A program made the position numbers and the translations under genes. Source: a virus. Taken from it: a stretch of 39,122 nucleotides of DNA. How positions within the stretch are numbered: position 1 is the first letter of the stretch; every line of letters begins with the position of its first letter. The DNA is taken from the IMG/VR virus record IMGVR_UViG_3300034062_001359, positions 1-39,122 of that record; one strand, 5' to 3'. Shown in pieces: positions 3 to 37,490 of this stretch. The notes under the pieces were generated by a model, which saw only the letters and a program-made list of their open reading frames with translations, was not told the origin of the DNA and ran no database searches.

Positions 3-1076
3 ACTGCTGCTGCTGCCTCGGCTAGTGCTGCATCTACCTCTGCAACCAACGCAGCGGCCTCGGCAAGCACAGCTACGACACAAGCAACCAACGCTGCTAC
101 ATCAGCCAGCAACGCATCTACAAGTGCCAGCAACGCTTCCACAAGTGCCACTAACGCTGCTGCTAGTGCGTCTAGCGCGTCCACCAGTGCAACTAATGCT
201 GCGACATCTGAAAGCAATGCTGCTGCAACGTATGACCTGTTTGATGATAGATACCTGGGAGCCAAAGCGGCTGACCCAACGCTAGACAATGATGGCAATG
301 CGCTTGTCACTGGTGCGATGTACTTCAACACGGTATCTAACACAACTAGGATATACAACGGGGCTAGTTGGCAAGATACTGCTGCTCTGGCTACAACGAT
401 TAACCTAGCTACTCAAGTCACAGGCACACTACCAATTGCTAACGGTGGAACAGGCACTACCTCTACAACCTTTGTTAACCTTGCCACCAACGTCACCGGC
501 ACACTACCTGTCGGCAACGGCGGCACAGGCGCAACAACGCTGACAGGAGTTCTCAAGGGCAACGGCACAGGTGCGTTTACTGCTGCGACTGCTGGAACAG
601 ACTTTGTTGCACCTGCAACGGCTACGACTTTCACAGCTACACAAACCTTCAGCGGTAGCACTAGCGCATTGGGTATTGTGTTAAACGATGCAGCAGAAGT
701 AGCTACAGTGTCTGCAACAGCGGCCACAGGTACGATTGCCTATGACATCACTACGCAGTCTGTCCTGTACTACACAAGCAACGCATCAGCAAACTGGACT
801 GTTAACTTTCGTGGTTCGTCAGGTACAAGTTTAAACACGCTGATGGCTACAGGTGAGTCAATGACTGTTGCATTCCTTGTCACTCAAGGTGCTACGGCGT
901 ATTACAACAGTGCTGTGCAGGTAGATGGTACAACCAGTGGCGTAACAACAAGATGGCTTGGTGGCGCACCTACAGCAGGCAACGCAAGCGGCATCGACAG
1001 TTATAGGTACTTAATAATTAAAACAGGCAGTGCAGCGTACACTGTGTTGGCTTCAGTCACTCAATTTAAGGCGTAA
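3..1076 (+). CDS. Tail fibre protein, 5' end missing (copy A)
   Basis: The reading frame is open from base 3, so the start lies left of the window. The first ~70 codons are an Ala/Ser/Thr/Asn repeat (units like ATNAATSASNAS), typical of the extended shaft of phage fibres. It is followed by YDLFDDRYLGAK and TGAMYFNTVSNTTRIYNG, phrases common in T7-type and other tail-fibre proteins, then two GTLP(I/V)xNGGTG repeats. The last ~145 residues match the C-terminal part of the gene at 33397-34254 almost residue for residue, while the N-terminal parts are unrelated. It probably forms part of the host-recognition apparatus at the tail tip. The stop is followed after 3 bases by the next adhesion gene, so the two are probably co-translated. 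Confidence 0.75.
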   Translation, partial: TAAAASASAASTSATNAAASASTATTQATNAATSASNASTSASNASTSATNAAASASSASTSATNAATSESNAAATYDLFDDRYLGAKAADPTLDNDGNALVTGAMYFNTVSNTTRIYNGASWQDTAALATTINLATQVTGTLPIANGGTGTTSTTFVNLATNVTGTLPVGNGGTGATTLTGVLKGNGTGAFTAATAGTDFVAPATATTFTATQTFSGSTSALGIVLNDAAEVATVSATAATGTIAYDITTQSVLYYTSNASANWTVNFRGSSGTSLNTLMATGESMTVAFLVTQGATAYYNSAVQVDGTTSGVTTRWLGGAPTAGNASGIDSYRYLIIKTGSAAYTVLASVTQFKA

Positions 1077-1079
1077 CCT

Positions 1080-3077
1080 ATGCCATTACAATCAACATCA
1101 GGTGCTGCGAGTTACGATGCCTTTGGTGGCGGTGCTGCTGCTGTACCGAATTACATAGAAGAAGTTTTCAGTACGCACCTCTACACAGGCAATGTCACCC
1201 CTTTAAACATTACCAATGGTATTGATTTGGCGGGTAAGGGTGGGCTGATTTGGACAAGAGAAAGAAACAATGCTGCAAATCATCTTTTAATAGATTCTCA
1301 AAGAGGTTTGGCTAATGGTTTTTTAGAATCAAACACAACAGACGCTGCTGACACAAGCAGGGTGTCTGAGTCTATAAGTTCTTTTAATACCGATGGATAT
1401 ACGCTTCACGCCCCAGATACTCTGTGGGATAGAGCTTCATATAACTACGTCTCATGGACATTCCGCAAGCAGCCGAAGTTTTTTGATATTGTGACGTATA
1501 CGGGGACAGGCAGCAACCGTACCATTGCACACAGCTTAAACAGCGTTCCAGGCTGTATTATTGTTAAAAGAACAGACACGACAGCAAATTGGGCTGTCTA
1601 CCACCGTGGTCTTGCCAATACAGAGTATCTTGTTCTAAATAGCGATGCTGGGGCGGCTACAGGCGCAACGTGGTGGAACTCTACAACTCCAACATCCGCA
1701 GTTTTTAGCGTAGGCACTGACGCAAGTGTTAATGCTTCAGGCGGTACATACGTAGCCTACATATTCGCCCACGATGCAGGCGGCTTCGGTCTGGCTGGTA
1801 CGGACAATGTGATTTCGTGTGGGACTTATACAACTGACGGTAGTGGTAACGCAACGGTAACTTTGGGGTATGAGCCACAATTCCTTTTAAGGAAACGCAA
1901 TGTGGCTGGGTCAACGCCATGGTTCATTGCTGATGCTGCCCGTGGATGGACAACATCTGGTGTCGCAGGGACGCAAATACTTCAGCCCAACGACTCATCA
2001 GCGGAGTCTGTCGGAAATAATATTGCCTGTTCACCCTCTGCTACAGGGATGACAATTGCAAACGATGGCGCATCACGCACCTACATCTACATAGCCATAC
2101 GCCGTGGCCCAATGAAAGTGCCAACGAGTGGGACGAGTGTTTTTGCTCCTGTTTTTAGGAAAGGAACAAGCACTGTTGTTCAAGTACCTAGTGGATTTGT
2201 AACTGATTTAGGAATAACGCAGTCAACACAAAATGGCTTTAGCACAGGCGGGGCTGTGTTTTATGACAGATTGCGGGGGCGCACATTGTTTTTAAGTCCA
2301 AGTGGCAACTCCGCTGAGGATACATACACTACGCTAGTAGAGGGCTTTGATACACAAAGTGGCGTAATCATGGCTGCTGATACATCTAGGGCATGGACAA
2401 ATTTTCTTGGCTCGCCTCCAAACGATAATTATGAGTTCTATGCCAACTGGTTCTTCAAACGCGCCCCAGGCTTCTTTGATGAGGTTTGTTATACGGGGAC
2501 GGGGAGTGCAAGGACTGTGGCACATAACTTGGCGGCAGTGCCTGAGATGATGATTGTGAAGCGCAGAGACAGTATAGGTGTGTGGCGTGTATACCATCAA
2601 AGTCTTGGAGCAACAAAAAACATTCGGCTAAATGATACAGCAACACCAGAAACAGACTCAGTTATATGGAACGACACAGCCCCAACTTCTTCGGTGTTTA
2701 CAGTAGGAACAAACGCTAATGTCAACGCATCCAGCGGCACTTACGTTGCCTACCTATTCGCTACACTCGCTGGAGTCTCCAAAGTCGGCAGCTACACAGG
2801 CACAGGCACAACGCTACAGATCAACTGTGGCTTCACTGGTGGTGCGAGGTTCGTGATGATAAAGCGCACTGACTCTACAGGTAACTGGTTCGTCTGGGAC
2901 ACAGCTAGAGGCATCATAGCGGGTAATGACCCTTACCTAGTGCTTAACACCACAGACGCTCAAGTCACCAACACAGACTACGTTGACACCTACAGCGCAG
3001 GGTTTGAGATCAGTAGCACAGCCCCTGCGGCAATTAATGCTAACGGCGGCACTTACATCTTCTTGGCTATCGCGTAA
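1080..3077 (+). CDS. DUF7483-like virion adhesion/structural protein (copy A)
   Basis: A 665-residue protein built from repeated beta-rich modules. A recurring signature is FFDxVxYTGTGS, then IAHxL, xxVPGCIIVKRTD, and later an AYIFAHDAGGFG or AYLFATLAGVSK segment. Copies of this unit start near residues 134, 460 and 575. The repeats resemble the DUF7483 family found in phage tail or decoration proteins (family recalled, not searched). The N-terminal 20 residues, SWTFRKQPKFFD and the last ~100 residues are nearly identical to the paralogue at 34258-36261, but the segments between are strongly diverged, as expected of a receptor- or glycan-binding surface under diversifying selection. It sits between the fibre and fibre-assembly genes with spacers of only 3 and 10 bases. 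Confidence 0.75.
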   Translation: MPLQSTSGAASYDAFGGGAAAVPNYIEEVFSTHLYTGNVTPLNITNGIDLAGKGGLIWTRERNNAANHLLIDSQRGLANGFLESNTTDAADTSRVSESISSFNTDGYTLHAPDTLWDRASYNYVSWTFRKQPKFFDIVTYTGTGSNRTIAHSLNSVPGCIIVKRTDTTANWAVYHRGLANTEYLVLNSDAGAATGATWWNSTTPTSAVFSVGTDASVNASGGTYVAYIFAHDAGGFGLAGTDNVISCGTYTTDGSGNATVTLGYEPQFLLRKRNVAGSTPWFIADAARGWTTSGVAGTQILQPNDSSAESVGNNIACSPSATGMTIANDGASRTYIYIAIRRGPMKVPTSGTSVFAPVFRKGTSTVVQVPSGFVTDLGITQSTQNGFSTGGAVFYDRLRGRTLFLSPSGNSAEDTYTTLVEGFDTQSGVIMAADTSRAWTNFLGSPPNDNYEFYANWFFKRAPGFFDEVCYTGTGSARTVAHNLAAVPEMMIVKRRDSIGVWRVYHQSLGATKNIRLNDTATPETDSVIWNDTAPTSSVFTVGTNANVNASSGTYVAYLFATLAGVSKVGSYTGTGTTLQINCGFTGGARFVMIKRTDSTGNWFVWDTARGIIAGNDPYLVLNTTDAQVTNTDYVDTYSAGFEISSTAPAAINANGGTYIFLAIA

Positions 3078-3087
3078 GGAATAAATC

Positions 3088-3576
3088 ATGCAAATCAGAG
3101 TTAAAGCTACAGGCGCGGTGATGTACGAAAGTGAGTTTCGCGCATACATTAAAAACACAAGCGGTGCATCGTGGAATGAAACAACTGACGAGATACTACA
3201 GTCTCTGGGTGCTGATGTAGTCTTTGAAGGCGCACAAGCCACTGGCGGCACAGTGTATCAATACAGCCAGCGTGACGGTGTTGAGGAAGTTGATGGTAAG
3301 TGGTATACAAAGTATATCCTTGCACCAGTGTTTACTGACAACGAAGATGCTACAGCCGCAGAGCAAGAGGCTGCTTACAAAGCCATGAAGGATGCAGAGC
3401 AGGCAACGTCTGTACGCACAAGCCGTGGTGACAAGTTAAAGGATAGCGACTGGACACAGGTAGAGGATGCACCTGTAGACAAAGCAGCGTGGGCTACCTA
3501 CCGTCAAGAGTTAAGAGATATCAGCGCACAGGAAGGCTTCCCTTGGGCTGTAGTGTGGCCTACGCAACCAGAGTGA
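3088..3576 (+). CDS. Tail fibre assembly-like protein (Phage_tail_APC type, copy A)
   Basis: 162 residues. The C-terminal ~60 residues follow the pattern R..RxxKLxDSDWTQ, DAPVDKAAWATYRQELRDI, then FPW and WPTQP, which is the hallmark of phage tail assembly chaperones encoded next to tail fibres. The N-terminal ~90 residues (starting MQIRVKATGAVMYE) form a small adaptor region typical of aquatic phages. The likely role is to help fold or attach the neighbouring fibre or adhesin. A GGAATAA sequence precedes the ATG. It is nearly identical to 36272-36760, differing mostly at third codon positions. Confidence 0.75.
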   Translation: MQIRVKATGAVMYESEFRAYIKNTSGASWNETTDEILQSLGADVVFEGAQATGGTVYQYSQRDGVEEVDGKWYTKYILAPVFTDNEDATAAEQEAAYKAMKDAEQATSVRTSRGDKLKDSDWTQVEDAPVDKAAWATYRQELRDISAQEGFPWAVVWPTQPE

Positions 3577-3584
3577 GGTAGATC

Positions 3585-3827
3585 ATGCCCGAATCAAGCC
3601 TAATTGACATGTTGATAGCCGGAGCCGGTGCTGTTGTAGCCTGGTTCGTCAAATCTACCCGTGAAGATAACAAGGAACAGGATCGCAAGATCGAAACCTT
3701 GCAGCGTGAACAAGCTGCTCTGTTAAGCCGCGAGGAGTTCAGGCAAGACATGCAAACCTTCAGGCAAGAGATGAATCAGAACTTTGACAAAGTTTTCAGC
3801 AAGCTGGACAAGAAGGCAGATAAGTAA
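3585..3827 (+). CDS. Small membrane-anchored coiled-coil protein (copy A)
   Basis: 80 residues: a hydrophobic N-terminal segment (residues ~5-23), then a highly charged, probably coiled-coil stretch rich in Lys, Glu, Gln and Arg up to the C-terminus. A strong GAGGTAGATC precedes the ATG. It lies in the lysis cassette, so it may be a holin accessory or a haemolysin XhlA-like protein, although XhlA usually has the reverse domain order. The stop overlaps the next start by one base (TAATG), implying translational coupling. Conserved in copy B (36769-37011). Function not established. Confidence 0.6.
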   Translation: MPESSLIDMLIAGAGAVVAWFVKSTREDNKEQDRKIETLQREQAALLSREEFRQDMQTFRQEMNQNFDKVFSKLDKKADK

Positions 3828-4303
3828 TGCTTGATCCGGTCTCAGCCTTAGCCATAGCTACGTCTGCGTTTAATCTGCTAAAAAAGGGAATATCCGCAGG
3901 TCGAGAATTGGAAGACATGGCAGGCCAGCTTGGCACATGGTTTGGCGCAGTCAGTGACGTAAAATCCGCTGAAGAGGAAGCCAAAGACCCACCACTGTTT
4001 AAAAAGCTTTTAAGTAAAAACTCAGTCGAGCAAGAGGCAATGCAAGCACTCTTGGCTCGCAAGAAGATTGAGCAGCAAGAACGTGAACTGCGTGAGCTTA
4101 TTGTGTACAAGTGGGGAACTGACGCTTACGTTGATATGCTTAGAGATCGGGCAAGGATCAAAGACACTCGCGCAAAGGCTATTCAAAATCAACGGCGCAA
4201 GATGCGTAAGTTCATTGCAAACGTATTAACAATCGGTGCAATTCTTGCGCTGGTCGGCATCATAGTCGCATTTATTATTGGCATAATTTCAAACATAGGG
4301 TAA
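3827..4303 (+). CDS. Membrane-anchored helical protein of the lysis cassette (copy A)
   Basis: 158 residues. An N-terminal helix (ALAIATSAFNLLKK) is followed by a charged helical region with the phrase KIEQQERELRELIVYKWG. A basic segment (QRRKMRKF) leads into one clear transmembrane helix at residues ~128-155, near the C-terminus. It starts inside the stop of the upstream gene and ends 5 bases before the holin candidate. It is conserved in copy B at 37011-37487. I do not recognise a named family. Its place among TM genes and lysozyme suggests a lysis or virion-membrane role, but this is inference from context. Confidence 0.6.
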   Translation: MLDPVSALAIATSAFNLLKKGISAGRELEDMAGQLGTWFGAVSDVKSAEEEAKDPPLFKKLLSKNSVEQEAMQALLARKKIEQQERELRELIVYKWGTDAYVDMLRDRARIKDTRAKAIQNQRRKMRKFIANVLTIGAILALVGIIVAFIIGIISNIG

Positions 4304-4308
4304 TCATC

Positions 4309-4809
4309 ATGTTGAGTTTAGTATCAAGTCTGCTCGGTTTTGCTGCTGGCGGTGTGCCAAAAATTCTAGACAACGTGTTTACGATGGTTCAAGACAGAGG
4401 CGATAAAAAGCACGAATTGGCAATGATGGCCGCTAACCGTGAGCGCGAACTGGCACTTGCTAAGGAGGGCTTTGTTGCCCAAGCTCGCGTAGAAGAGATC
4501 AAAAGTGACCAGATCGCTATGCAGACACAGACCCAAGAAAGGCTTGGGATGTACAAGCACGATATGAAAATCGGGGAAGGGGCTAGTACCTGGGTAATCA
4601 ACCTTCGATCCTCGGTACGGCCAGTTGTGACCTATATCTTCGTAGCCTTGCTGGTGGTCGTTGACATAGCAGGCATCTGGTACGCTTACTCAACAGGTGT
4701 TGCGTTTGCTGAAGCGATGGAGATGGTGTTCAGTGACGATGAGATGGCTATGCTAGCCGCAATACTGAGCTTCTGGTTCGGCAGTCAAGCGTTTAATTCC
4801 AAGCGGTAA
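4309..4809 (+). CDS. Putative holin, GTA-type 3-TM (copy A)
   Basis: 166 residues with three hydrophobic segments: an amphipathic or hydrophobic N-terminus (MLSLVSSLLGFAAGGV), a long middle charged helix (QDRGDKKHELAMMAANRERE), then two close TM helices near residues 107-128 and 145-162, ending FWFGSQAFNSKR. This resembles the gene-transfer-agent holin family (3 TMs), and it is placed directly upstream of the lysozyme with a 2-base gap. It would form the membrane lesion that releases the lysozyme. The copy B version (37748-38233) lacks five residues near position 22. The family assignment is moderately sure. Confidence 0.6.
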   Translation: MLSLVSSLLGFAAGGVPKILDNVFTMVQDRGDKKHELAMMAANRERELALAKEGFVAQARVEEIKSDQIAMQTQTQERLGMYKHDMKIGEGASTWVINLRSSVRPVVTYIFVALLVVVDIAGIWYAYSTGVAFAEAMEMVFSDDEMAMLAAILSFWFGSQAFNSKR

Positions 4810-4811
4810 CT

Positions 4812-5297
4812 ATGACTATTTCAGAAGCGGGTATTCAGTTGATTAAGAGCTTTGAGGGCTGTCACAATCAGCCCTACAAGTGTCCTGCTACGCTTTGGAC
4901 GATAGGCTATGGCAGAGTACTCTATCCAGATCAGGCAAGGCTCAAAACAGACGAGAGAGCCAGCTATCCACTACGCAGCGAACATAATAGGCTTTGGAAT
5001 GCTGACGAAATTGATGCGTTACTTGAAGCGGATTTACAACGCTTTTCGGATGGGGTACTACGACTATGTCCTGCTGCTGCTGATAATCAGTGCCACCTTG
5101 ACGCAATTACGAGCCTTGCTTTCAATATTGGACTAGGGAATTTAGCGTCATCCACCCTACGCATGAAGTATAACCGTTCTGACTATGATGGCGCAGCAGA
5201 TGAGTTCCTCAAGTGGCGCAAAACAAACGGCGTGGTACTGCGAGGACTAGAAAGGCGCAGAGAAGCGGAGAGGGCGTTATTCCTCTCCGGCGGCTAG
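4812..5297 (+). CDS. Endolysin, GH24 lysozyme (copy A)
   Basis: 161 residues, the usual size for a phage muramidase of glycoside hydrolase family 24, which cuts MurNAc-GlcNAc bonds of peptidoglycan. The catalytic triad follows the family spacing exactly: Glu15 (KSFEG), 8 residues, Cys24, 5 residues, Thr30, followed by IGYG. Cys replaces the Asp of T4 lysozyme, a variant common in phage enzymes. No signal peptide or SAR anchor is visible, so export should depend on the holin. The 3' end overlaps a convergent minus-strand gene by 21 bases. Copy B is at 38230-38715. Confidence 0.92.
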   Translation: MTISEAGIQLIKSFEGCHNQPYKCPATLWTIGYGRVLYPDQARLKTDERASYPLRSEHNRLWNADEIDALLEADLQRFSDGVLRLCPAAADNQCHLDAITSLAFNIGLGNLASSTLRMKYNRSDYDGAADEFLKWRKTNGVVLRGLERRREAERALFLSGG

Positions 5298-5447
5298 TCT
5301 ATCAAGTATCTCCTGCACTTCTTGCTGGGCTTTATCGTGACGCTCCTGCAACGATAACTGTAAGTCGCTACATAGTGCCATGATTGACCCAGAATCGTGT
5401 GGAGCGCAGCACAGGACGCTTCCAGATGGGTAGGTGACGAACTTCAT
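5277..5447 (-). CDS. Conserved 56-residue protein (copy A)
   Basis: A short gene starting ATG at 5447 with N-terminus MKFVTYPSGSVLCCAPHDSG and C-terminus ILDRLAAGEE. The start overlaps the stop of the upstream gene (ATGA), and the 3' end overlaps the lysozyme gene tail-to-tail by 21 bases. An equivalent 56-codon frame exists in copy B (38695-38865, GTG start). Most differences between the two are synonymous or conservative, so it is a real protein gene. Two Cys (13, 14) are followed by a helical C-terminus. Function unknown. Confidence 0.7.
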   Translation of the reverse strand: MKFVTYPSGSVLCCAPHDSGSIMALCSDLQLSLQERHDKAQQEVQEILDRLAAGEE

Positions 5448-5644
5448 CGCGGCCTCGGACGTTTCTTGTGAAAAGCAATGTTGTCATCATTGTAAAAACC
5501 GGCAGGCCATTGGTTTGTGCCATCTACTGCTACTGATTCACCAGGCTGACGCACATCAATCTTGCCGCCACCTGACAGATACAATTTAATATCAAGTTCT
5601 AATCGTTCGCGGTCTAGTTTATTTTCCTTCTGATATTTCATCAC
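5444..5644 (-). CDS. Small conserved hypothetical protein (copy A)
   Basis: 66 residues. It starts at adjacent GTG/ATG codons; copy B has ATG ATG at the same place, which supports the N-terminus M-M-K/R-Y-Q. A charged N-terminal helix is followed by a compact C-terminal part with GESVAVDGTNQWPAGFYNDD and a basic tail. The stop overlaps the next gene (ATGA), and the start lies inside the upstream gene by 26 bases. The conserved Gly-Thr-Asn-x-Trp-Pro-Ala-Gly-Phe-Tyr core may be a small fold; no family recognised. Confidence 0.65.
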   Translation of the reverse strand: MMKYQKENKLDRERLELDIKLYLSGGGKIDVRQPGESVAVDGTNQWPAGFYNDDNIAFHKKRPRPR

Positions 5645-5819
5645 TAGCTCTATGCTCCTCGTAAAGTGTCATTGCCTCGACATGAGTTTCTGGCTTTGGG
5701 CAGTTACCTTTCGGCATAACGATGTAGTGCATCTTTATCTGCTCATAACCCAACGGGCAGAACATGGCTGGTTTGCTACTCGGAAACCGATATACGGCAC
5801 AAGTCAGGCAGGTGTTCAT
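5619..5819 (-). CDS. Small Cys-containing hypothetical protein (copy A)
   Basis: 66 residues. Cys4, Cys7 and Cys21 (MNTCLTCAVYR, then FCPLGYEQ) plus Cys40 could bind a metal, but this is not certain. The C-terminal half (PKPETHVEAMTLYEEHRASD) is matched by the partial gene at 39040-39122. It overlaps both neighbours, as expected in this compressed operon. Function unknown. Confidence 0.6.
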   Translation of the reverse strand: MNTCLTCAVYRFPSSKPAMFCPLGYEQIKMHYIVMPKGNCPKPETHVEAMTLYEEHRASDEISEGK

Positions 5820-10886: not shown

Positions 10887-11302
10887 GTGAGCAGTGGGTA
10901 GTCAACTCTGACAGTAAACTCGGTGGGTTTCTGGCTCACGCTGCCGAGCTTTATCGGAAGCACAAATACGTGACTTTCAAGTGGTCAACTGGGCAGCAAA
11001 GAAGCGAAACACAAAACGATGCAATGCACCTATGGTTTGAGCGCGTAGCCAAAACACTTAATGATGCAGGCTTGGAAATGGTTGTCAGTTTACCAACAGG
11101 AAAAGAGTGGACCATCCCCTGGTCCAAACACACGGTTAAGGAAAACATCTGGAAGCCAGTTCAGGAGGCAATAACAGGCAAGCAATCGACTACCGAAGCC
11201 AAGCGCATCGAGTACAGCCAAGTCTACGAAGTTATCCACAGCCGGTTTGCAGGTCATCATGGGATCACGCTACCTTTGTGGCCGAGCAAGGATAAGGAAT
11301 AA
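10883..11302 (+). CDS. NinB-like recombination protein
   Basis: 139 residues. Key features of the NinB-like phage family are YVTFKWSTGQQRSETQNDAM (the R-S-x-x-Q-N signature), IPWSKHTVKENIWKPVQEA and a KQSTTEAKRI motif, with C-terminal FAGHHGITLPLWP. NinB (Orf) proteins of lambda help load recombinases on ssDNA covered by SSB. It is coupled to the upstream gene by ATGA and to the overlapping ORF at 11302 by TAATG. Only distantly like lambda NinB, so the exact role is uncertain. Confidence 0.6.
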   Translation: MSEQWVVNSDSKLGGFLAHAAELYRKHKYVTFKWSTGQQRSETQNDAMHLWFERVAKTLNDAGLEMVVSLPTGKEWTIPWSKHTVKENIWKPVQEAITGKQSTTEAKRIEYSQVYEVIHSRFAGHHGITLPLWPSKDKE

Positions 11303-12030
11303 TGGGATGGATAATCAGCCAGGCACTATACGAGAAATGGCATTGTTCGCAGGAGCTGGAGGAGGAATTCTCGCAGGACATTTGCTTGGATGGAAAACAG
11401 TCTGCGCCGTTGAGTGGGAACCCTACCCAGCTTGCGTACTTGTCGCCAGACAAAATGACAAAATTCTCCCGCCTTTCCCGATTTGGGATGACGTTAAAAC
11501 CTTTGACGGCAGACCGTGGCGAGGACTTGTTGATGTGGTATCTGGAGGCTTTCCTTGCCAAGACATATCCAGTGCTGGACGAGGCGCAGGAATTGACGGA
11601 GAGCGATCTGGCATGTGGCGTGAAATGGCACGAATTGTCGGTGAAGTACGACCTAGGCTCGTGTTCGTGGAGAACTCACCAATGCTTGTGGGACGAGGAG
11701 CTGCACTGGTCATCAGTGACCTTGCCAAGATGGGGTATGACTGTCAGTGGTGTATTGTTTCAGCATCCGACTTCGGAGCGCCCCATCAACGGGACAGGTT
11801 CTGGCTTCTGGCCGACACCAACAGCACACAATGCAAAGGAAACCAATGCGCCCAGCGAAGCGAACAGAAACGAGCCAACACTAGCCAGTCGAGTTGGTGG
11901 GCATCTGAACCCGATGTGGGTAGAGTGGCTGATGGGGTGGCCGCTAGGGTGGACAGACTTAAAGCCATTGGCAATGGACAGGTTCCAGTGTGCGCGGCTA
12001 CCGCATTCAATATCCTTAGAGGAAAAATAG
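11302..12030 (+). CDS. Overprinted phage protein in a second frame of the methyltransferase gene
   Basis: 242 codons without a stop, one frame away from the methyltransferase and overlapping it for 724 bases. The ATG is coupled to the NinB-like stop (TAATG), and the stop codon abuts the NinG start exactly. The translation is not random-looking: FGMTLKPLTADRGEDLL, SCSWRTHQCLW, LPRWGMTVSG, GSGFWPTPTA, then LNPMWVEWLMGWPLGWTDL and KPLAMDRFQ. I recall this set of Trp-rich phrases from stand-alone proteins of many environmental phages. Their function is unknown. It may be a genuine dual-coding gene or a fossil shadow of methyltransferase codons. The AAGGA is only 3 bases from this ATG, so its translation would rely on coupling. 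Confidence 0.5.
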   Translation: MGWIISQALYEKWHCSQELEEEFSQDICLDGKQSAPLSGNPTQLAYLSPDKMTKFSRLSRFGMTLKPLTADRGEDLLMWYLEAFLAKTYPVLDEAQELTESDLACGVKWHELSVKYDLGSCSWRTHQCLWDEELHWSSVTLPRWGMTVSGVLFQHPTSERPINGTGSGFWPTPTAHNAKETNAPSEANRNEPTLASRVGGHLNPMWVEWLMGWPLGWTDLKPLAMDRFQCARLPHSISLEEK

Positions 12031-12038
12031 ATGCGTAG
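11307..12038 (+). CDS. DNA cytosine-5 methyltransferase
   Basis: 243 residues from the ATG at 11307, which lies 8 bases after AAGGA. All core motifs are present: motif I ALFAGAGGG (12-20), motif IV GFPCQDIS with catalytic Cys84, motif VI ENSP (122-125), motif VIII QRDRFW (161-166) and motif X IGNGQVP (221-227). It transfers a methyl group from SAM to C5 of cytosine. The target-recognition region between motifs VIII and X is only ~45 residues, far shorter than in Dcm-type enzymes, which suggests a short recognition site. No restriction enzyme is nearby, so it is a solitary phage methylase. The TET/JBP-like gene downstream suggests its product is a substrate for oxidation. Confidence 0.92.
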   Translation: MDNQPGTIREMALFAGAGGGILAGHLLGWKTVCAVEWEPYPACVLVARQNDKILPPFPIWDDVKTFDGRPWRGLVDVVSGGFPCQDISSAGRGAGIDGERSGMWREMARIVGEVRPRLVFVENSPMLVGRGAALVISDLAKMGYDCQWCIVSASDFGAPHQRDRFWLLADTNSTQCKGNQCAQRSEQKRANTSQSSWWASEPDVGRVADGVAARVDRLKAIGNGQVPVCAATAFNILRGKIDA

Positions 12039-12588
12039 ATGCAAGCAGTGTAGATCAGAGATAGCACCTGCTGCAAAGTGTAACGACTTTATCGGTAAAA
12101 AAGGTTTCTGCGGTATCGACTGCGCCAGTGCCTGGGGAGCGTCGGTCGCTATTACCAAGCGGGAAAAAGCCTACAGGCTCGAAACACAGGCGAAGCGGGA
12201 ACGGCTGAAGACCCGATCAGATCACGCACGGGAAGCACAGGAAGCGGTAAACGCATACGTCAGGCTCAGAGACGCTCTCAAGCCGTGTATAAGCTGCCAG
12301 CGTTATCACACAGGCCAGTACCATGCGGGACACTATAGAACGGTTAAGGCGGCTCCCCAGCACCGATTCAACGTCCTACAAATTAGAAAACAATGCTCGG
12401 TCTGTAACTCGCATCTTTCTGGGAATATAACCGAATACCGAATAAACCTTGTGCGACTAATTGGTGCTGAACGGGTAGAAAGAATAGAGTATGACAATAA
12501 TCCTCGCCGATACGAGGTTGACTACCTTAAAAGGTTACGGTCGGTATTTAAAAAACGAGTTAAACACCTACTAAGGCTAAGAACATGA
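12031..12588 (+). CDS. ninG: NinG/Rap-like recombination endonuclease
   Basis: 185 residues. N-terminal zinc-like Cys pairs (RCKQC, then CGIDCASAWG), a charged helical middle, and the NinG core: CISCQRYHTGQYHAGHYRTV followed by FNVLQIRKQCSVCNSHLSGN. NinG (Rap) of lambda resolves Holliday junctions and D-loops in RecA- or Red-type recombination. The size is close to lambda NinG. The start follows the overprinted ORF stop with no gap and overlaps the methyltransferase end by 8 bases. Confidence 0.92.
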   Translation: MRRCKQCRSEIAPAAKCNDFIGKKGFCGIDCASAWGASVAITKREKAYRLETQAKRERLKTRSDHAREAQEAVNAYVRLRDALKPCISCQRYHTGQYHAGHYRTVKAAPQHRFNVLQIRKQCSVCNSHLSGNITEYRINLVRLIGAERVERIEYDNNPRRYEVDYLKRLRSVFKKRVKHLLRLRT

Positions 12589-12797
12589 CAGAACCAACCC
12601 CTGACGGCATTACGCAATCACAATGGCAACACTACAACATGGGGCGACGCTTTCACGCAGAAGGTTTAGGATCGGAGGCGGCAAAGTGCGTATTTGACAC
12701 GACTCTGCGCTCATGGTGCTTGGCTGGCTGGCATGACGCAGATATCGAGGCCGGTGGTAAAACTGCCCAGGATTTAATCAGGTTCCTAGATTCCTGA
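12585..12797 (+). CDS. RMF-like small protein
   Basis: 70 residues coupled to ninG by ATGA. The pattern MGRRFHAEGLGSEAAKC, spacing, then WCLAGWHDADIE matches the ribosome modulation factor fold (G..A...G......C ... W..GW..A). Phages and plasmids carry many RMF-like genes of unknown target; some affect ribosomes or host enzymes. It is the last gene before a terminator. Confidence 0.6.
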   Translation: MTEPTPDGITQSQWQHYNMGRRFHAEGLGSEAAKCVFDTTLRSWCLAGWHDADIEAGGKTAQDLIRFLDS

Positions 12798-12918
12798 TCT
12801 GCCTTGCTGCGTTGTTTAACCCGATGATAGTATCGCTCCGTCCTTTGGCTGAGACGCTGCCGACTCCCCTTGTCGGCGTAAAAGCATTGCAGCACCGCCC
12901 CTGAATGGGGCTTTTTTT
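12798..12918 (+). other. Structured 120-base intergenic stretch, possible small RNA or 3' UTR
   Basis: No gene. It holds a short CGAT/ATCG hairpin near 12825, a perfect 6-bp hairpin GCCGAC/GTCGGC with a 7-base loop (12859-12877) and then the terminator. It may be the 3' UTR of the early operon or an independent small RNA ending at the terminator. Confidence 0.35.
12897..12918 (+). terminator. Intrinsic terminator after the RMF-like gene
   Basis: A GCCCC/GGGGC stem with a 5-base TGAAT loop followed by seven T. It closes the replication-recombination operon just upstream of the second copy of the 55-bp promoter element. Confidence 0.85.
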
Positions 12919-12935
12919 GATCTATATTAATTAAA

Positions 12936-12990
12936 ATGAATAATAATTATAAAAAAGGCTTTACAGATGCACAGCAATGATAGATTATAT
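12936..12990 (+). promoter_or_regulatory. Rightward promoter, second copy of the 55-bp element
   Basis: ATGAATAATAATTAT, 7 bases, GCTTTACA with -35 TTTACA (12960-12965), a 17-base spacer and -10 GATTAT (12983-12988). A gapless hand alignment to 7522-7468 gives 43 matches of 55. It should drive the genes from 13029 on. Confidence 0.65.
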
Positions 12991-13028
12991 ACCTATCGGC
13001 GGCATCCAGCGGCCAGAGGAAACGGAAA

Positions 13029-13217
13029 ATGAAAAAAGCAAAACAGACACCAGAGCAAATAGCACTCTTAAAAGTGCTTGAGGTCGCTGGATGCTCTATT
13101 GCTAATGCTGACCACATTATGACAGCGGCCATTGCTTTAGACATGGAGCCTTGGTTTGTAGAAGGCGCATACTTTGATTACCTTGATGCAAACGAAAGAA
13201 TAGCCGCTAAAGGCTAA
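13029..13217 (+). CDS. Small hypothetical protein, 62 residues
   Basis: First gene after the promoter at 12936-12990, with AGAGGAAACGG upstream. A mainly helical protein beginning MKKAKQTPEQIALLKVLEVA, with one Cys (22) and an acidic C-terminal half containing EPWFVEGAYFDYLDANERI. No family recognised. Confidence 0.55.
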   Translation: MKKAKQTPEQIALLKVLEVAGCSIANADHIMTAAIALDMEPWFVEGAYFDYLDANERIAAKG

Positions 13218-13260
13218 CTAACCACGGCCACGGACGGTCATTAACTAAGGGGATAAAAAT

Positions 13261-13527
13261 ATGTACGCACTACAAGCAATCGAAACACGATACAGCCCAG
13301 CAACAGCGCACCGAGGCAGCAGGATCAGCGCAAAGACCGCAACAGGAATAAAACTCAGTATTGGCTACCCGCACGAACTCTCAGGGGTAAACTGCCACGC
13401 AAAGGCAGCGGAAGCACTGGCGCGGAAACTTAACTGGATCGAACCTGACGCAGCCTTTGAGTCACAGTACATCGCAGGCGGTACTCAGGCTGGGTACGTG
13501 TTTGTTAACACAGGAGCAAAGTCATGA
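13261..13527 (+). CDS. Conserved phage hypothetical protein, 88 residues
   Basis: It starts after AAGGGGATAAAAAT. The pattern RGSRISAKTATGIKLSIGYP followed by CHAKAAEALARKLNW resembles a short protein seen in many phage early operons that pairs a small beta sheet with a helix ending in LNW. The function is unknown to me. The next gene overlaps its stop (ATGA). Confidence 0.6.
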   Translation: MYALQAIETRYSPATAHRGSRISAKTATGIKLSIGYPHELSGVNCHAKAAEALARKLNWIEPDAAFESQYIAGGTQAGYVFVNTGAKS

Positions 13528-13760
13528 ACGCTTTTTACTTGCAATCAGCAGATCAAATATTCCCTGTTTACGGTGTTAGCAGTATAGCCGAGGCAGAAAA
13601 ATATGCAGGCGAGTTCGACAAAGTCATAGAAACTGATGAAAAAGTGTACATGAATATGGCAACAGGATCAGTCGATTTTGCGTCTGGATGGGATGACATA
13701 GCGGAAGTTGTAGAGGTTAGATATTGTTCTGAAACAGAAGGATGGGTATGCAATGAGTGA
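13524..13760 (+). CDS. Hypothetical acidic protein, 78 residues
   Basis: Coupled to the upstream gene by ATGA and overlapping the next by 8 bases. It begins MNAFYLQSADQIFPVYGVSS and contains ASGWDDIAEVVEVRYCSETE. Acidic, soluble, probably a small alpha/beta protein. No family recognised. Confidence 0.55.
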   Translation: MNAFYLQSADQIFPVYGVSSIAEAEKYAGEFDKVIETDEKVYMNMATGSVDFASGWDDIAEVVEVRYCSETEGWVCNE

Positions 13761-14091
13761 GTTAAGCGCATCCAAGTATGTAAAGCAGCGTGGCCTGAAG
13801 AATCTAACCGAGGTCAGCAATATGACCGGCAAGCCTTGCGGTACGCTGCGGAACTGGCACAGGGACGAGAACGAGTTGTTTAAGATCGTTATCACTGGCT
13901 GCATTGAAACTAAGAAAAAAACAAACCTGAAGGGGCAAGATATGAAATTTCAAGTGATTCTGGTGGCCGAGGACGGGGAGTATACCCTTACCGGCTCAAT
14001 GTCATACGACGCTGCGGCAGCGTACTGCAAGCGGCACGAAAACAGCTACGGCGAAGGGCAGGCTCTTTGCATCGAGGTGGTCCATGTTTAA
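13753..14091 (+). CDS. HTH-like protein with a C-terminal extra domain
   Basis: 112 residues. Residues 1-52 (SASKYVKQRGLKNLTEVSNM, then TGKPCGTLRNWHRDE) resemble a phage DNA-binding HTH found as a stand-alone protein. Residues 64-112 are a separate unit starting MKFQVILVAEDGEYTLTGSM. An internal ATG at 13942 is preceded by AGGGGCAAGAT, so the C-terminal domain may also be made alone, or two genes may have fused. It overlaps both neighbours by 8 bases. Confidence 0.55.
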   Translation: MSELSASKYVKQRGLKNLTEVSNMTGKPCGTLRNWHRDENELFKIVITGCIETKKKTNLKGQDMKFQVILVAEDGEYTLTGSMSYDAAAAYCKRHENSYGEGQALCIEVVHV

Positions 14092-14584
14092 CCTGGCGGA
14101 TATAGGTGACAAAATAAATACTATAGAACTGATAAAGCAATGGGGACGGGATCGAGGCATTACTGTAAACGGAACGCATCAAGGCCAGTGGTACAAGCTG
14201 ATTAGCGAGTTCGGGGAACTGGCCGACAGCTTGGCAAAAGGCAGTGACCCACGGGACGACATTGGCGATATGTTTGTTGTTCTGGTAATGATTTGCGAGA
14301 TCAGGAAAGTCGATATTGATCAGGCACTAAACATGGCAAGGCTAGTTGAGTTCGAGAATGCCGAAGTTTACGAACTAATGGGCTGGCTGCTCATGGATAT
14401 TCAGACCCTACAATACCAAGCCAACGTAGGCCGTGCAGTTAAGGTAATCTGCATACTGACCGCCATTGCTGAGGCACACGGCCACACGCTCGAGGACTGC
14501 ATGGAGATAGCGTACAATGACATAAAAGACCGGAAAGGCTACCTAAGCGTGGACGGAGTATTCATAAAGGAGTCGGCAGCATGA
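14084..14584 (+). CDS. MazG-like NTP pyrophosphohydrolase
   Basis: 166 residues. The all-alpha NTP-PPase motif is visible as KLISEFGELADSLAKG, with its Glu residues, followed by DDIGDMFVVLVMICE (E-x-x-D-type metal site). The C-terminal half adds MEIAYNDIKDRKG, typical of MazG-like phage proteins. These enzymes hydrolyse nucleoside triphosphates to monophosphates, cleaning the nucleotide pool or altering (p)ppGpp stress levels. In this phage it could also remove unwanted modified dNTPs, which is speculation. Confidence 0.8.
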   Translation: MFNLADIGDKINTIELIKQWGRDRGITVNGTHQGQWYKLISEFGELADSLAKGSDPRDDIGDMFVVLVMICEIRKVDIDQALNMARLVEFENAEVYELMGWLLMDIQTLQYQANVGRAVKVICILTAIAEAHGHTLEDCMEIAYNDIKDRKGYLSVDGVFIKESAA

Positions 14585-14763
14585 AAACAGCACTAACATT
14601 TTTTATTATGGGTGCGCTATCCATAGCGGGGGGAATAAACCTCGCTATGCTCGCCCTTGATGACGCTCCCGCTGTTTTATGGCTCATGGCAGGTGGAAGT
14701 ATAGCATGTGGCGTAACGTGCCTAATATCTGGTTTTACGCAGTTTGACCAGTCGCTGAAATAG
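14581..14763 (+). CDS. Two-TM small membrane protein
   Basis: 60 residues with two hydrophobic helices (residues ~4-25 and ~32-52) separated by a short acidic loop. Coupled to the MazG-like gene by ATGA. It lies far from the lysis cassette, so it may be an antiholin, exclusion protein or host-membrane modifier; nothing decides among these. Confidence 0.6.
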   Translation: MKTALTFFIMGALSIAGGINLAMLALDDAPAVLWLMAGGSIACGVTCLISGFTQFDQSLK

Positions 14764-14825
14764 ATGATACATTCCCAACACATAAAGCCGCACAAGAAGG
14801 CATCAAGCACGATATGGGGTAAGTG

Positions 14826-15434
14826 ATGCAAAAATTTCCGACCTATAAAACCGCCAGCGTTGAATCGCTGATTCCATACGCACGTAATTCCCGAACACAC
14901 TCCGAGGCGCAGGTCACTAAGATAGCGGCCTCGATCAGGGAGTTTGGATTCCTGAACCCAGTCATCGTTGATAAGGATAACGGCATTGTGGCAGGCCACG
15001 GGCGGGTTATGGCTGCGAAAAAACTTGGCATGGTAGAACTACCAGTAATTCAGGCTGATCACCTAACTGATGCTCAAAGACGAGCATACGTTATTGCCGA
15101 TAACCGTCTTGCGCTTGATGCTGGGTGGGACTACGAAATGTTGAAGGTTGAATTTGATGAGTTGTCTAGTATCGGCTTTGATATAAACCTAACCGGCTTT
15201 GAAGATTCAGAGATTGCAGCCTTTAACCCGGACTATTCGTTTTTGGACGAGGCTGGCGATCTTGATAACGAACTAGATCAAATGGCCTCGGAAGTGAAAA
15301 AGGCAATACAAATAGAATTTGAGCCTGACCACTACCAAAGGGCAATGGACGTTATATCGCACTGGCGCGGACAAGGCGCATACGTTGGCTACATGATATT
15401 GACCTATCTGGAGAGCGAAAAAGGCGACTCGTGA
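14826..15434 (+). CDS. ParB-like nuclease/DNA-binding domain protein
   Basis: 202 residues from the ATG at 14826. It follows GGGGTAAG and overlaps the stop of a possible 20-codon leader ORF (14764-14826). The ParB/sulfiredoxin N-domain spans residues ~8-100: VESLIPYARNSRTHSEAQV, IREFGFLNPVIVD, the catalytic-type GIVAGHGRVMAA, then AYVIADNRLAL. In phages such domains often sit next to DNA modification enzymes. Here it is coupled (GTGA) to the glycosyltransferase and followed by the TET-like dioxygenase, so it may target or support base modification. The C-terminal ~80 residues are acidic and unrecognised. Confidence 0.82.
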   Translation: MQKFPTYKTASVESLIPYARNSRTHSEAQVTKIAASIREFGFLNPVIVDKDNGIVAGHGRVMAAKKLGMVELPVIQADHLTDAQRRAYVIADNRLALDAGWDYEMLKVEFDELSSIGFDINLTGFEDSEIAAFNPDYSFLDEAGDLDNELDQMASEVKKAIQIEFEPDHYQRAMDVISHWRGQGAYVGYMILTYLESEKGDS

Positions 15435-16261
15435 AAGTATTCACATTTTTCTACAACAGATACGACACCGCAACAACGTCTCGCGCTTTGCATGAAAGCG
15501 GAATATCCCATTATGTAATGATTCACAATCAGCAGGACTGCGACAAGTTTGTGGCCGGTAACACGCTGCACGGCCAGCCAGTTATAACAAACAACCCGAA
15601 AGGGCTGGCACACCAAAGGAACAGCGCACTTGCTATGATGCAGCCGGGCGAGTGGGCTGCGTTCCTTTGCGACGACTTTGAAAAAATTATGAGCTTCCCG
15701 CCAGCGTGGATAACCGGCAAAACAAGCCGCATAAACATAACGGCAGAGAATCAAAACAGGTTCCGGCTTTCCAACCACATCCAGATGACGCTGGCGCAAA
15801 TGTTTGATCTGTTCCCATATCTCACGAGCATTGCGGAAAAAAGCGGCATTCACCTGATCGGTTTCGGGCTGCATGACAACCCGCGCAATCTGGCGCGGAA
15901 GTTTACGACAAAAGGACTGGCCGATGGGCGGTTCTGGCTGGTACGCAAATCCACTTACGAGTTTGACGTAAACGCACAGCTAATAGACGACGTGGCATGG
16001 ACGGCCGAAAACATAGTGCGGCACAAAAAAGTTATGGTATTGAATTGGCTTGTCCCGTATTTTAAACGGTATACCGCTGGCGGCTTTGGCTCAACCACGG
16101 AGCGTAAGGAAAGGCGGCGAAAGGAATGCTCGTATCTAGTTGCCAAGTATGCACCGCTGATTCGTTTTGCAGCAAAGCCTGGCTGGGACTCTGGTACGCA
16201 CATCAAAATCAACGCATCCGACAAGAACATCGAAATCATGAGAAAGAGGTTCGGAATATAA
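15431..16261 (+). CDS. Putative DNA-base glycosyltransferase (TAGT-like, GT-A fold)
   Basis: 276 residues from a GTG that overlaps the ParB stop (GTGA). It begins with a beta strand VFTFFYNRYDTATTS typical of GT-A enzymes. HQRNSALAMM (61-70) and FLCDDFEKIM (78-87) follow, the latter a DxD-like metal site. DDVAWTAENI (186-195) may hold the catalytic acid, and a basic C-terminal region follows (RKERRRKECSYL). This layout fits the TET/JBP-associated glycosyltransferases described from phage base-modification operons. It would add sugar to oxidised 5-methylcytosine in phage DNA. The stop overlaps the TET-like gene (TAATG). The glycosyltransferase class is likely; DNA as acceptor is inferred from the neighbours. 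Confidence 0.65.
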   Translation: MKVFTFFYNRYDTATTSRALHESGISHYVMIHNQQDCDKFVAGNTLHGQPVITNNPKGLAHQRNSALAMMQPGEWAAFLCDDFEKIMSFPPAWITGKTSRINITAENQNRFRLSNHIQMTLAQMFDLFPYLTSIAEKSGIHLIGFGLHDNPRNLARKFTTKGLADGRFWLVRKSTYEFDVNAQLIDDVAWTAENIVRHKKVMVLNWLVPYFKRYTAGGFGSTTERKERRRKECSYLVAKYAPLIRFAAKPGWDSGTHIKINASDKNIEIMRKRFGI

Positions 16262-17034
16262 TGCGAATTTTAAATCTTGTGCAGGTGCAGCACAGCATTA
16301 AGATTGGCGACGTCTGCGGCGACATAGAGCCAAACATCACCGAGGATACAATCTTTATGGAGAACGGTGTGCCAGTAGGTTTCTATATCAAAAGCATAAC
16401 AGGCAAGCTGAAACAATATGTAGAGATTGCTAACGCAGAACTATTGAGCGATCGGGTTCCTAAAAGCGAAATGAAACGCTCTAGCGGCTTTGTCAGCAAG
16501 GAAAACGAGGTTCTACAATACAGCACTATCATAGGTGCGATACCACCCAAGCCACACATGAAACGCAACTACCCTTCTATGTCCAGTGTGCATCAGGTAA
16601 AAACCGCGAGGAACTTTATTAAAGCTATGCTGCTGGCCTGCAAAGAGGCTGAGGATGTGATTCTAGAATTGACACCGGAAATCTATCACCGGCAGAAAAA
16701 GATTATTGCAGAAAACTGCCCGGAAAAGTTCCGCTTCGGCAATTTGTTTACCAGTAGCATCAGCAATTTTAATATCGCAGCAGCGTTCCACCGCGACGGC
16801 GGCAACCTTGAGGGCTGCGTGAATGTTATTATTGCAAAAAAGCGCAACGCAACCGGCGGTAACACTACAGTCCCAGACTACGGGGCAACCGTTGACAGTA
16901 GTGATAATTCAATGCTGGTTTACCCAGCGTGGAAGAATGTTCACGGGGTAACACCTATCAGGCCAACAACAGAAGGCGGTTACAGGAATAGTCTTGTATT
17001 CTATCCTTTAAAGGCTTTTGCAAAATATGTATAG
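16261..17034 (+). CDS. TET/JBP-like 2-oxoglutarate/Fe(II) dioxygenase
   Basis: 257 residues from the ATG at 16261, coupled by TAATG; an upstream in-frame extension is only shadow of the previous gene. The double-stranded beta-helix signature is clear: FNIAAAFHRDGGN gives His177-x-Asp179; GGNTTVPDYGATV and MLVYPAWKNVHGVTPI give the distal His228; YRNSLVFYPL gives Arg242 for 2-oxoglutarate. This spacing and the HRDxGN phrase match the TET/JBP family, which oxidises 5-methylcytosine or thymine in DNA. A C5-cytosine methylase earlier on the same strand makes 5mC the likely substrate, and the adjacent glycosyltransferase would use the 5hmC product. Active-site residues look intact. Confidence 0.75.
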   Translation: MRILNLVQVQHSIKIGDVCGDIEPNITEDTIFMENGVPVGFYIKSITGKLKQYVEIANAELLSDRVPKSEMKRSSGFVSKENEVLQYSTIIGAIPPKPHMKRNYPSMSSVHQVKTARNFIKAMLLACKEAEDVILELTPEIYHRQKKIIAENCPEKFRFGNLFTSSISNFNIAAAFHRDGGNLEGCVNVIIAKKRNATGGNTTVPDYGATVDSSDNSMLVYPAWKNVHGVTPIRPTTEGGYRNSLVFYPLKAFAKYV

Positions 17035-17069
17035 TTGTTTGAAATTTGCGTCAAAGCGAGGTAAAGACT

Positions 17070-17351
17070 ATGGCAAAAGACCCTAGACTAGAACGAGCAG
17101 GTGTAGAGGGCTTTAACAAACCAAAACGCACACCCAGTCACCCAACAAAGAGTCATGTAGTAGTCGCTAAAGAAGGCGATGAAATCAAGACAATTAGGTT
17201 CGGGCAGCAGGGCGTTAGCGGGTCACCTAAGCGCGAAGGTGAAAGCAAGGCAGATGCAGCGAGACGAGCCGCTTTCAAGGCTCGACATGCTGCGAACATA
17301 GCCAAAGGCAAATTGTCTGCGGCCTACTGGGCAAATAAAGTTAAATGGTGA
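17070..17351 (+). CDS. Conserved small basic phage protein (DUF6321-like)
   Basis: 93 residues from the ATG at 17070, with GAGGTAAAGACT upstream; the longer frame from 17046 lacks a site. The sequence is a well-known phage ORFan-like family: MAKDPRLERAGVEGFNKPKR, TPSHPTKSHVVVAKEGD, IRFGQQGVSG and a C-terminus AAYWANKVKW. It is very basic and perhaps nucleic-acid-binding. It usually lies near packaging genes. Function not established. Confidence 0.75.
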   Translation: MAKDPRLERAGVEGFNKPKRTPSHPTKSHVVVAKEGDEIKTIRFGQQGVSGSPKREGESKADAARRAAFKARHAANIAKGKLSAAYWANKVKW

Positions 17352-17552: not shown

Positions 17553-17639
17553 ATGAACGCAAGCAAGTTCCCGCTTATTAAAACTGCACAAATCAGCAAT
17601 GCACGAATAAGGATGCCTAATAATGCCCGGCACTCCTGA
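17553..17639 (+). CDS. Possible 28-residue leader peptide
   Basis: An ATG 4 bases after AGGGGTC opens a 28-codon frame (MNASKFPLIKTAQISNARIR and on) that ends 17 bases inside the small terminase gene. The ribosome site is good and the overlap suggests coupling, but there is no comparative support in the window. Confidence 0.3.
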   Translation: MNASKFPLIKTAQISNARIRMPNNARHS

Positions 17640-17988
17640 ACACATCCCAGACGACAAGACCCGTGGTGAAGTCTCGGCACTGTGCGCCTTTGGTGTGCCG
17701 CAGGAAGAAATTGGCATTTATATTGGTATAGACGCTAAGACCCTACGGAAGCATTACCGCAGTGAGCTAGACAGCGCAAGGGTTAAAGCCAATGTGAAAG
17801 TCAGGCGATTCCTGTTTGAGGCTGCATCAGGCGATGCAATGGCAAAGGGTGCAAGTTATGCCGACTGTCTGCGCGGCTCTATGTTCTGGGCTAAAACGCA
17901 GATGGGTTTCCGTGAAGGTGACGAATTAGCAGACAAAGGTGACATTGACCGCGTGATTGAGATTGTCCGTGCGACTAAGCCTGTCTGA
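17623..17988 (+). CDS. terS: Terminase small subunit-like protein
   Basis: 121 residues. An HTH region (RGEVSALCAFGVPQEEIGIY, IGIDAKTLRKHYRSEL) is followed by VRRFLFEAASGD and SMFWAKTQMGFRE, the usual pattern of phage small terminases that recognise pac/cos DNA. An insertion between the last two motifs (AMAKGASYADCLRG) is unusual. The gene overlaps the large subunit start. Confidence 0.75.
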   Translation: MPGTPEHIPDDKTRGEVSALCAFGVPQEEIGIYIGIDAKTLRKHYRSELDSARVKANVKVRRFLFEAASGDAMAKGASYADCLRGSMFWAKTQMGFREGDELADKGDIDRVIEIVRATKPV

Positions 17989-19207
17989 ACCTCAGGAAGA
18001 GTTTGTATTCTGCGAACAACCTTACCCAGCTATGGTGGCCGGACTTGGTGCTGGGAAAACACAAGCTGGCATAGTAAGAAACCTGCTGAAAATGCTGCAA
18101 ACACCAGGCATCGACACAGCCTATTACATGCCGACTTATGACTTGCTGAAACTGAGAGCAATGCCAGGCGCACAAAAAATTATTTCAGAGCTTGGCCTTA
18201 AGCACACAATCAACAATTCCAGCTACACGATAAAGATAAAAGGCTACGGCAAGATGATCTTCCGCAGCTATGACAAGCCAAGCAGAATTGTGGCTTATGA
18301 GGTTGCACACAGCATCGTTGACGAGTTAGACACATTACCAAAGGACAAGGCTGAAGAAGTCTGGCGCAAGGCAGCAGAGCGCAACCGGCAGAACTGCGGT
18401 GAGCAGAACACGATGGGCAACGTCACTACACCAGATCAGGGCTTCAGCGGCTTCACTTACCAGAAGTGGGTCAAAAAAGCACAAGAGGGCTACCATCTAA
18501 TCAAAGCAGCAACATCATCAAATATTTACTTGCCAGAAAAGTACATTGAGGATATTCGCAAAAACTACGACCCGCTGCTCGCAGAGATGTACCTTAACGG
18601 CGATTTTGTCAGTCTGAGCCAGAACAAGGTCTATCACTTCTTTGACCGGCACAAGCACCACACAACAAGGGTTTTGACACCAGATGACAGGGCAATCTAT
18701 GTCGGGCTGGATTTTAACATTGGCGGCTGCGCTGCAAACCTTTGGCTTATTGAAAACAATAAACCCGTGGCAGTTGATGAGTTTGTGGCTCACGATACCC
18801 GCGACATCTGCAACAGGCTTGATCGCTACAGGCATGGCGGCAGGATGATAACTGTCTACCCAGACGCATCAGGCAGGGCTGGCAGAACTAATGCAAGCCA
18901 GTCTGATATCCAGATAATTGAGCAGGCTGGCTACCGTGTGGACGCTCCTAATGCAAATCCGGCAATTCGTGATAGAATTAACGCTGTCAACGCTTTGTTT
19001 GCACATGATCGCATCAGTATTAACACTGACAGATGCCCAATGCTGACAGATGCGCTTGAGTCGCAAGGCTACGATGCGAAGGGTGAACCGGAGAAATACA
19101 ACGATCACCCATCCATTGATGACTACACAGATTCAATGGGTTATTTCCTGCACAGGAGATTCCCACTGGTTCGCCCAATATCACAGGCGAGGATTGCAGG
19201 CATATGA
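17969..19207 (+). CDS. terL: Terminase large subunit
   Basis: About 412 residues. ATPase: Walker A GLGAGKTQAG near residue 26, Walker B SIVDELDTL near 110, and an ATPase coupling region NVTTPDQGFSG. Nuclease: YVGLDFNIGG, VYPDASGRAGR and the C-terminal HPSIDDYTDSMGYF supply the acidic metal ligands. It pumps and cuts concatemeric DNA at the portal. The start is uncertain: GTG at 17969 is preferred here, with TTG at 17957 and 17963 as alternatives, none with a good ribosome site, so coupling to terS is likely. The stop overlaps the portal ATG (ATGA). Confidence 0.93.
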   Translation: MRLSLSEPQEEFVFCEQPYPAMVAGLGAGKTQAGIVRNLLKMLQTPGIDTAYYMPTYDLLKLRAMPGAQKIISELGLKHTINNSSYTIKIKGYGKMIFRSYDKPSRIVAYEVAHSIVDELDTLPKDKAEEVWRKAAERNRQNCGEQNTMGNVTTPDQGFSGFTYQKWVKKAQEGYHLIKAATSSNIYLPEKYIEDIRKNYDPLLAEMYLNGDFVSLSQNKVYHFFDRHKHHTTRVLTPDDRAIYVGLDFNIGGCAANLWLIENNKPVAVDEFVAHDTRDICNRLDRYRHGGRMITVYPDASGRAGRTNASQSDIQIIEQAGYRVDAPNANPAIRDRINAVNALFAHDRISINTDRCPMLTDALESQGYDAKGEPEKYNDHPSIDDYTDSMGYFLHRRFPLVRPISQARIAGI

Positions 19208-34254: not shown

Positions 34255-34257
34255 CCT

Positions 34258-36261: not shown

Positions 36262-36271
36262 GGAATAAATC

Positions 36272-36760: not shown

Positions 36761-36768
36761 GGTAGATC

Positions 36769-37487: not shown

Positions 37488-37490
37488 CAA

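Follow-up and report, generated by a model that had tools for sequence, protein, structure and literature searches.

Hypermodification by phage TET enzymes was predicted and then demonstrated by others, as far as the citing literature conveys it, and partners of the ADDT and 5-hydroxymethyluracil (5hmU) kinase type belong to known thymidine hypermodification. For action of phage TETs on 5-methylcytosine (5mC), a citing paper refers to Burke et al. (2021), at least in summary (PMC12730594), while the genes for ParB, TET, aGPT-Pplase2/ADDT and a kinase in Rhodococcus phage Tonitrus were put forward in 2025 as a thymidine hypermodification system (PMC11955845). Adjacency of ParB and TET is already visible in public annotations and has been named once, within that thymidine system. 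Here we describe a unit of ParB-like, glycosyltransferase (GT) and TET/JBP genes in the IMG/VR virus record IMGVR_UViG_3300034062_001359, which we analysed over its whole length of 39,122 bases (henceforth the window). On comparative grounds we lean towards a role for this unit in post-replicative hypermodification of DNA pyrimidines, with thymine a likelier base than 5mC supplied by the C5-cytosine methyltransferase (C5-MTase) that this phage encodes, so that T would be converted to 5hmU and then to glycosyl-5hmU. What is new here is the constancy of the ParB partner, a swappable tailoring slot that includes FkbM-type methyltransferases, the independence of the C5-MTase in both directions and a reading frame overprinted on the methylase gene.

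The three genes lie on the plus strand just upstream of terminase and form one coupled unit, as proposed in the initial annotation, which had also placed them, along with the C5-MTase and MazG-like genes described below, on this strand at the positions given here. The ParB-like gene (14823-15434 with a GTG start, or 14826-15434 with an ATG start) is followed by the GT gene (15431..16261), whose GTG start at 15431 lies within the ParB stop (GTGA), and the gene for the 2-oxoglutarate-Fe(II) dioxygenase (16261..17034) starts with the ATG at 16261 on the GT stop (TAATG). The ParB-like protein matches ParB_N (PF02195, 2.4e-6) with 28 bits, above the curated cut-off of 26.3, as well as phrog_620 (5e-52), and carries the nucleotide-box Arg (G-x-x-R), read from the sequence as AGHGR. 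The dioxygenase passes the Tet_JBP cut-off narrowly (PF12851, 8.8e-9; 35.2 bits versus 34.9), and its H177-x-D179, H228 and R242 are invariant in an alignment of 30 relatives. A profile built from these 30 relatives matches human TET2 (8e-4), with the HRD, the distal His and the Arg aligned, which bears out the earlier placement of the enzyme in the TET/JBP family. The TET2 His located two residues past a conserved Tyr (H1904), which we take to be a base contact, corresponds to an invariant Leu in the phage relatives, and we have not used this position as evidence for thymine. The label 'queuine tRNA-ribosyltransferase' attached to the TET gene through PHROG 6059 was rejected as a mislabel with no support from the sequence. 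The same label is found in NC_020847 and in mycobacteriophage records, several of them in RefSeq, as an apparent annotation error.

Relatives of the TET gene are encoded in 159 viral-contig stretches, and the gene is for that reason no chance open reading frame (ORF); 80 loci were kept for comparison. The comparison records are mostly incomplete contigs, and the cultured genomes among them are the firmest. Among clade-1 loci with more than 1400 bases upstream of TET, all 67 have a ParB-like gene upstream of TET, either adjacent to it or separated by one to four genes. In nine clade-1 loci the slot gene is absent and ParB immediately precedes TET, and ParB-TET is thus the minimal unit. Actinophage TETs, at 21-27% identity, led to a second deep clade (clade 2), where ParB is again coupled immediately upstream of TET in most loci for which upstream sequence is available. 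The same direct coupling is seen in Pedobacter and Oscillatoria contigs, and the cultured phages Tonitrus, Margaery and LilMcDreamy carry ParB upstream of TET according to their annotation. As a control, PF02195 occurs in 25 of 28 TET records versus 2 of 29 non-TET phage records (Fisher p=1e-10). The hosts of the module range from Prochlorococcus to Mycobacterium and Bacteroidota. ParB-TET is the fixed core of the module, and the ParB partner, which had been singled out as something particular to this locus, turns out to be the rule. Searches seeded with the GT alone found no relatives among viral contigs and no tblastn match in phages, and GT relatives were collected via the TET loci; searches started from the TETs of Pedobacter and S-CBWM1 added no useful loci. 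As a separate observation, on a Pedobacter nanyangensis contig (L175, 9070-10438) ParB overlaps a distant TET (31% identity), and no GT is adjacent.

The second gene of the unit encodes a TAGT-like GT, not a TAGT. Its match to the TAGT family (PF20691, 0.0048) is weak, extends over nearly the full length and fails the cut-off (17.3 bits versus 27.5); placing both enzymes in their expected families by profile therefore succeeded for Tet_JBP and fell short for TAGT. Related slot proteins at two other loci (L002 and L026) exceed the TAGT cut-off, and a clade-2 relative (L194) scores 22.8 bits. The GT also matches phrog_842 (1.1e-4), the T-even 'beta-glucosyl-HMC-alpha-glucosyltransferase' group. 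Its Asp motif comprises D81-D82 and D187, of which D81 and D187 are invariant across 21 slot proteins, and an AlphaFold2 (AF2) model (pLDDT 86.8) has Foldseek matches to GT-A enzymes, with a best E of 1.1e-5. Together with the profile matches, the Asp positions and the fold matches uphold its description as a GT-A enzyme of TAGT type.

Comparison of the loci shows that the position between ParB and TET is an exchangeable slot for tailoring genes. In 35 clade-1 loci it is occupied by a TAGT-like gene and in 22 by the gene for an FkbM-type methyltransferase (PF05050), including L001, L016 and L164:16431-17132; the other slots hold P-loop kinases, a nucleotidyltransferase-like protein, or ADDT together with an amidotransferase-like gene, or are empty. 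In clade 2, the tailoring genes are found 3' of TET and comprise TAGT-like enzymes, six proteins resembling the window GT, FkbM, ADDT with a P-loop kinase, and a nucleotide-sugar epimerase. TAGT-like enzymes, FkbM methyltransferases and ADDT with a P-loop kinase recur in both clades, and this recruitment of the same enzyme families by different gene orders supports a common chemistry, the alteration of the hydroxymethyl group made by TET. FkbM in the slot hints at O-methylated hydroxymethyl bases, and ADDT with a kinase, a combination of the thymidine hypermodification type, was counted for thymine.

Could the oxygenase and GT instead act on a target other than DNA, such as a protein, a tRNA or a surface glycan? 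The GT does score under the TAGT cut-off, its fold matches the general GT-A enzymes TarS, TarP and PcManGT, and PHROGs and database records name the oxygenase a 'queuine tRNA-ribosyltransferase'. By contrast, the Tet_JBP match and the TET2 alignment, the fixed ParB partner, the position before terminase and the presence of ADDT, a DNA-modification enzyme, in the same slot all point to DNA, and we consider a non-DNA target very improbable.

A major question is which pyrimidine serves as substrate, since the window also encodes a C5-MTase (11307..12038, plus strand), with a longer TTG-start frame from 11247. The enzyme was correctly recognised in the initial annotation: it matches PF00145 (1.9e-31) and phrog_363 (8.8e-65), and its motifs I, IV, VI, VIII and X read FAGAGGG, GFPCQ, EN, QRDRFW and GNGQVP. 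It had been cast as the supplier of the substrate, in the order C to 5mC, 5mC to 5-hydroxymethylcytosine (5hmC) and then sugar addition. Several points favour this cytosine route and weigh against thymine. The window itself holds the PF00145 enzyme, and MTase, GT and TET all lie within 6 kb of one genome. Phage TETs with co-occurring C5-MTases reportedly act on 5mC, as Burke et al. are said to have described in PNAS in 2021 and as citing papers relate in part. A C5-MTase is present in five or more of the other clade-1 loci; four of these enzymes came from a profile search of the shorter contigs and lie some 2-3 kb downstream of TET, an arrangement seen in a subclade of relatives. Finally, absence from single incomplete contigs is soft evidence.

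Across records, however, MTase and TET behave as independent genes. PF00145 was found in one of 34 other clade-1 records (33 lack it), in none of the six cultured phages and in three of 30 clade-2 virus records (27 lack it); with TET records so generally free of the enzyme, the cytosine order is not the best reading. The C5-MTases near other TETs are only about 30% identical to that of the window, which sits at a different locus. In the TET tree, whose rows do not include the 5mC-type TETs of Burke et al., the window falls in a well-supported clade of 29 rows and none of the others bears a C5-MTase; 12 rows of this clade stem from C5-free records longer than 16 kb, so that even close sisters with long records do without a C5-MTase. 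Conversely, among 29 records that were not collected through TET and that carry close relatives of the window MTase, several of them exceeding 30 kb, TET was found in none. The case for independence is carried by the complete cultured genomes and by this pattern in both directions. As judged from these distributions, the C5-MTase is probably separate from the TET module and independently inherited, and we regard the cytosine route as rather doubtful, yet possible for this one phage, which has a C5-MTase. Thymidylate synthase/hydroxymethylase (PF00303) was likewise found in none of 29 TET records, which indicates that hydroxymethylation probably does not take place at the nucleotide level.

The 5mC could also be made by the host, with TET acting on it alone or on both thymine and 5mC, and the modification pattern would then depend on the host. 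TET/JBP chemistry covers 5-methylpyrimidines in general, and the metagenome-assembled genomes (MAGs) behind two TET loci (G094 and G095) have several C5-MTases. Set against this, no C5-MTase was matched in the MAG behind another TET locus (G096), and the module occurs in hosts as distant as Prochlorococcus, Mycobacterium and Bacteroidota. We give this explanation only a small chance.

The module probably adds sugars to the phage's own DNA; DNA as its substrate, thymine as the altered base, the sugar itself, the part played by ParB and a protection of the genome are inferred. The ParB-like protein would load on phage DNA before packaging and, as the constant partner, would load or direct the oxygenase there. 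The TET/JBP enzyme would hydroxylate the 5-methyl group of a pyrimidine in DNA, and the GT-A enzyme would then add a sugar onto the resulting 5-hydroxymethyl group. The methyl group would be that of thymine, the natural 5-methylpyrimidine, as for JBP, because the relatives need no methylase, and T would pass through 5hmU to glycosyl-5hmU as in base J. By analogy with known hypermodified phages, the modification might plausibly shield the genome from restriction or CRISPR.

If this scheme is true, the likely substrate shifts from cytosine to thymine and ParB is singled out as a key part. A ParB-directed thymine hydroxylase would be a base-J-like mark in bacterial viruses and would bear on a phage origin of TET/JBP, and the same core is available in the cultured phages MED4-184/P-HS2, mycobacteriophage LilMcDreamy (where ADDT accompanies it, as ParB-TET-ADDT) and Tonitrus. 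More tentatively, such modules may be widespread in phages, with a ParB-like clamp delivering a methylase-independent, thymine-hydroxylating TET to finished DNA and a plug-in tailoring gene encoding a sugar transferase, an O-methyltransferase or an amino-acid transferase. In that event, the window would yield a virus-borne base J analogue and the FkbM versions would yield 5-methoxymethyl-type bases, of which we know none from DNA.

The methylase gene has a second feature that was missed by the initial annotation. A 242-residue ORF in the +1 frame (henceforth ORF2; 11302..12030, plus strand; phrog_1008, 4.4e-21) spans the whole MTase gene. An ORF2 homologue is encoded in the +1 frame of all 80 fetched MTase homologues (39-72% identity), and in most of them the frame is open over nearly the whole gene. 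Stops in the +1 frame number 94 in the MTase homologues versus 481 expected from synonymous-codon shuffling (ratio 0.20), whereas the same ratio is 0.95-0.98 for TET, ParB, the slot genes and other window genes. In the one Salmonella phage record checked (S9-5) ORF2 is unannotated, and a literature search turned up no publication about it. An AF2 model of the protein was unusable (pLDDT 43.5), and we claim no fold. To judge from its sequence relationships, ORF2 may be a recognition subunit of the methylase, which would explain why the recognition region in the MTase frame is so short. That shortness had been remarked upon earlier, and the linker between motifs VIII and X is indeed short; what had been seen as a peculiarity of the enzyme has a possible cause in the overprinted, conserved frame. 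Should ORF2 be such a subunit, a common phage methylase family that has been read as one protein is maybe two. The C5-methylase of Gordonia phage Upyo (L177) is split over two frames: gp54 has motifs I-VIII, and the gp53 frame, already open inside gp54, has a recognition-like stretch and motif X (LGNGVVPQ). The Upyo frame homologous to ORF2 runs past the N-terminal methylase half into the recognition-like stretch.

The window belongs to a lambda-like tailed phage with Erf-like and RecE-like recombination genes, O/P-type replication genes, NinB-like, NinG, terminase, portal and tape measure genes. The MazG-like gene, the small ORF and the terminase region described next lie on the plus strand. 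A MazG-like gene (14084-14584; PF03819 0.0045, below cut-off; phrog_1992 1.5e-41) lies between the methylase and the ParB unit, and a small ORF (17046..17351; phrog_7595 1.6e-40; TTG start with an alternative in-frame ATG) separates TET from the terminase region (17623..19207), which is directly 3' of the module. That region comprises a putative small subunit (17623-17988), assigned from its location and from the lengths of the genes in relatives, where TET is followed by a short gene and then by a gene of about 390-490 residues, and the large subunit (17957-19207; phrog_2 2.4e-33). A tail-fibre/lysis module is present twice, at both ends of the record (~641-5701 and ~33819-39122). The copies share about 79% DNA identity, with most proteins 74-90% identical and the tail fibre 49%, a divergence too great for an assembly copy.

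How does the locus compare with known systems? Like Tonitrus, it has a ParB-like gene close upstream of TET/JBP, both upstream of terminase. Its TET, however, is only 27% identical to that of Tonitrus, and it has the ParB-TET core without ADDT or a 5hmU kinase, the tailoring genes of Tonitrus, and with a GT in the slot instead. Tonitrus lacks a C5-MTase; for the window, which has one, methylase independence is deduced from relatives. With the phage 5mC-TET pathways of Burke et al. (2021), as they are summarised by others, the window shares a TET, a glycosyltransferase and a C5-MTase in the same genome, but MTase co-occurrence is not kept in its clade and ParB is the constant partner. Provided that thymine is the substrate, the window would share with the base J pathway of kinetoplastids (JBP1/2 and the J glucosyltransferase) a hydroxylation by TET/JBP and a subsequent glycosylation, but it has phage enzymes, a TAGT-type GT-A and a ParB partner. 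Prochlorococcus phage MED4-184/P-HS2 has the same ParB-slot-TET order with terminase next, a TET 52% identical to that of the window and a ParB with the same C-terminal part, and differs in having an FkbM methyltransferase where the window has the GT. Finally, the TAGT of T6-like phages (PF20691; PMC13216743) shares the GT-A fold and the weak, near-full-length profile match; the T6 enzyme puts glucose on alpha-glucosyl-hydroxymethylcytosine (PMC13216743), whereas the window GT, with no other GT in the module, would act directly on the hydroxymethyl base.

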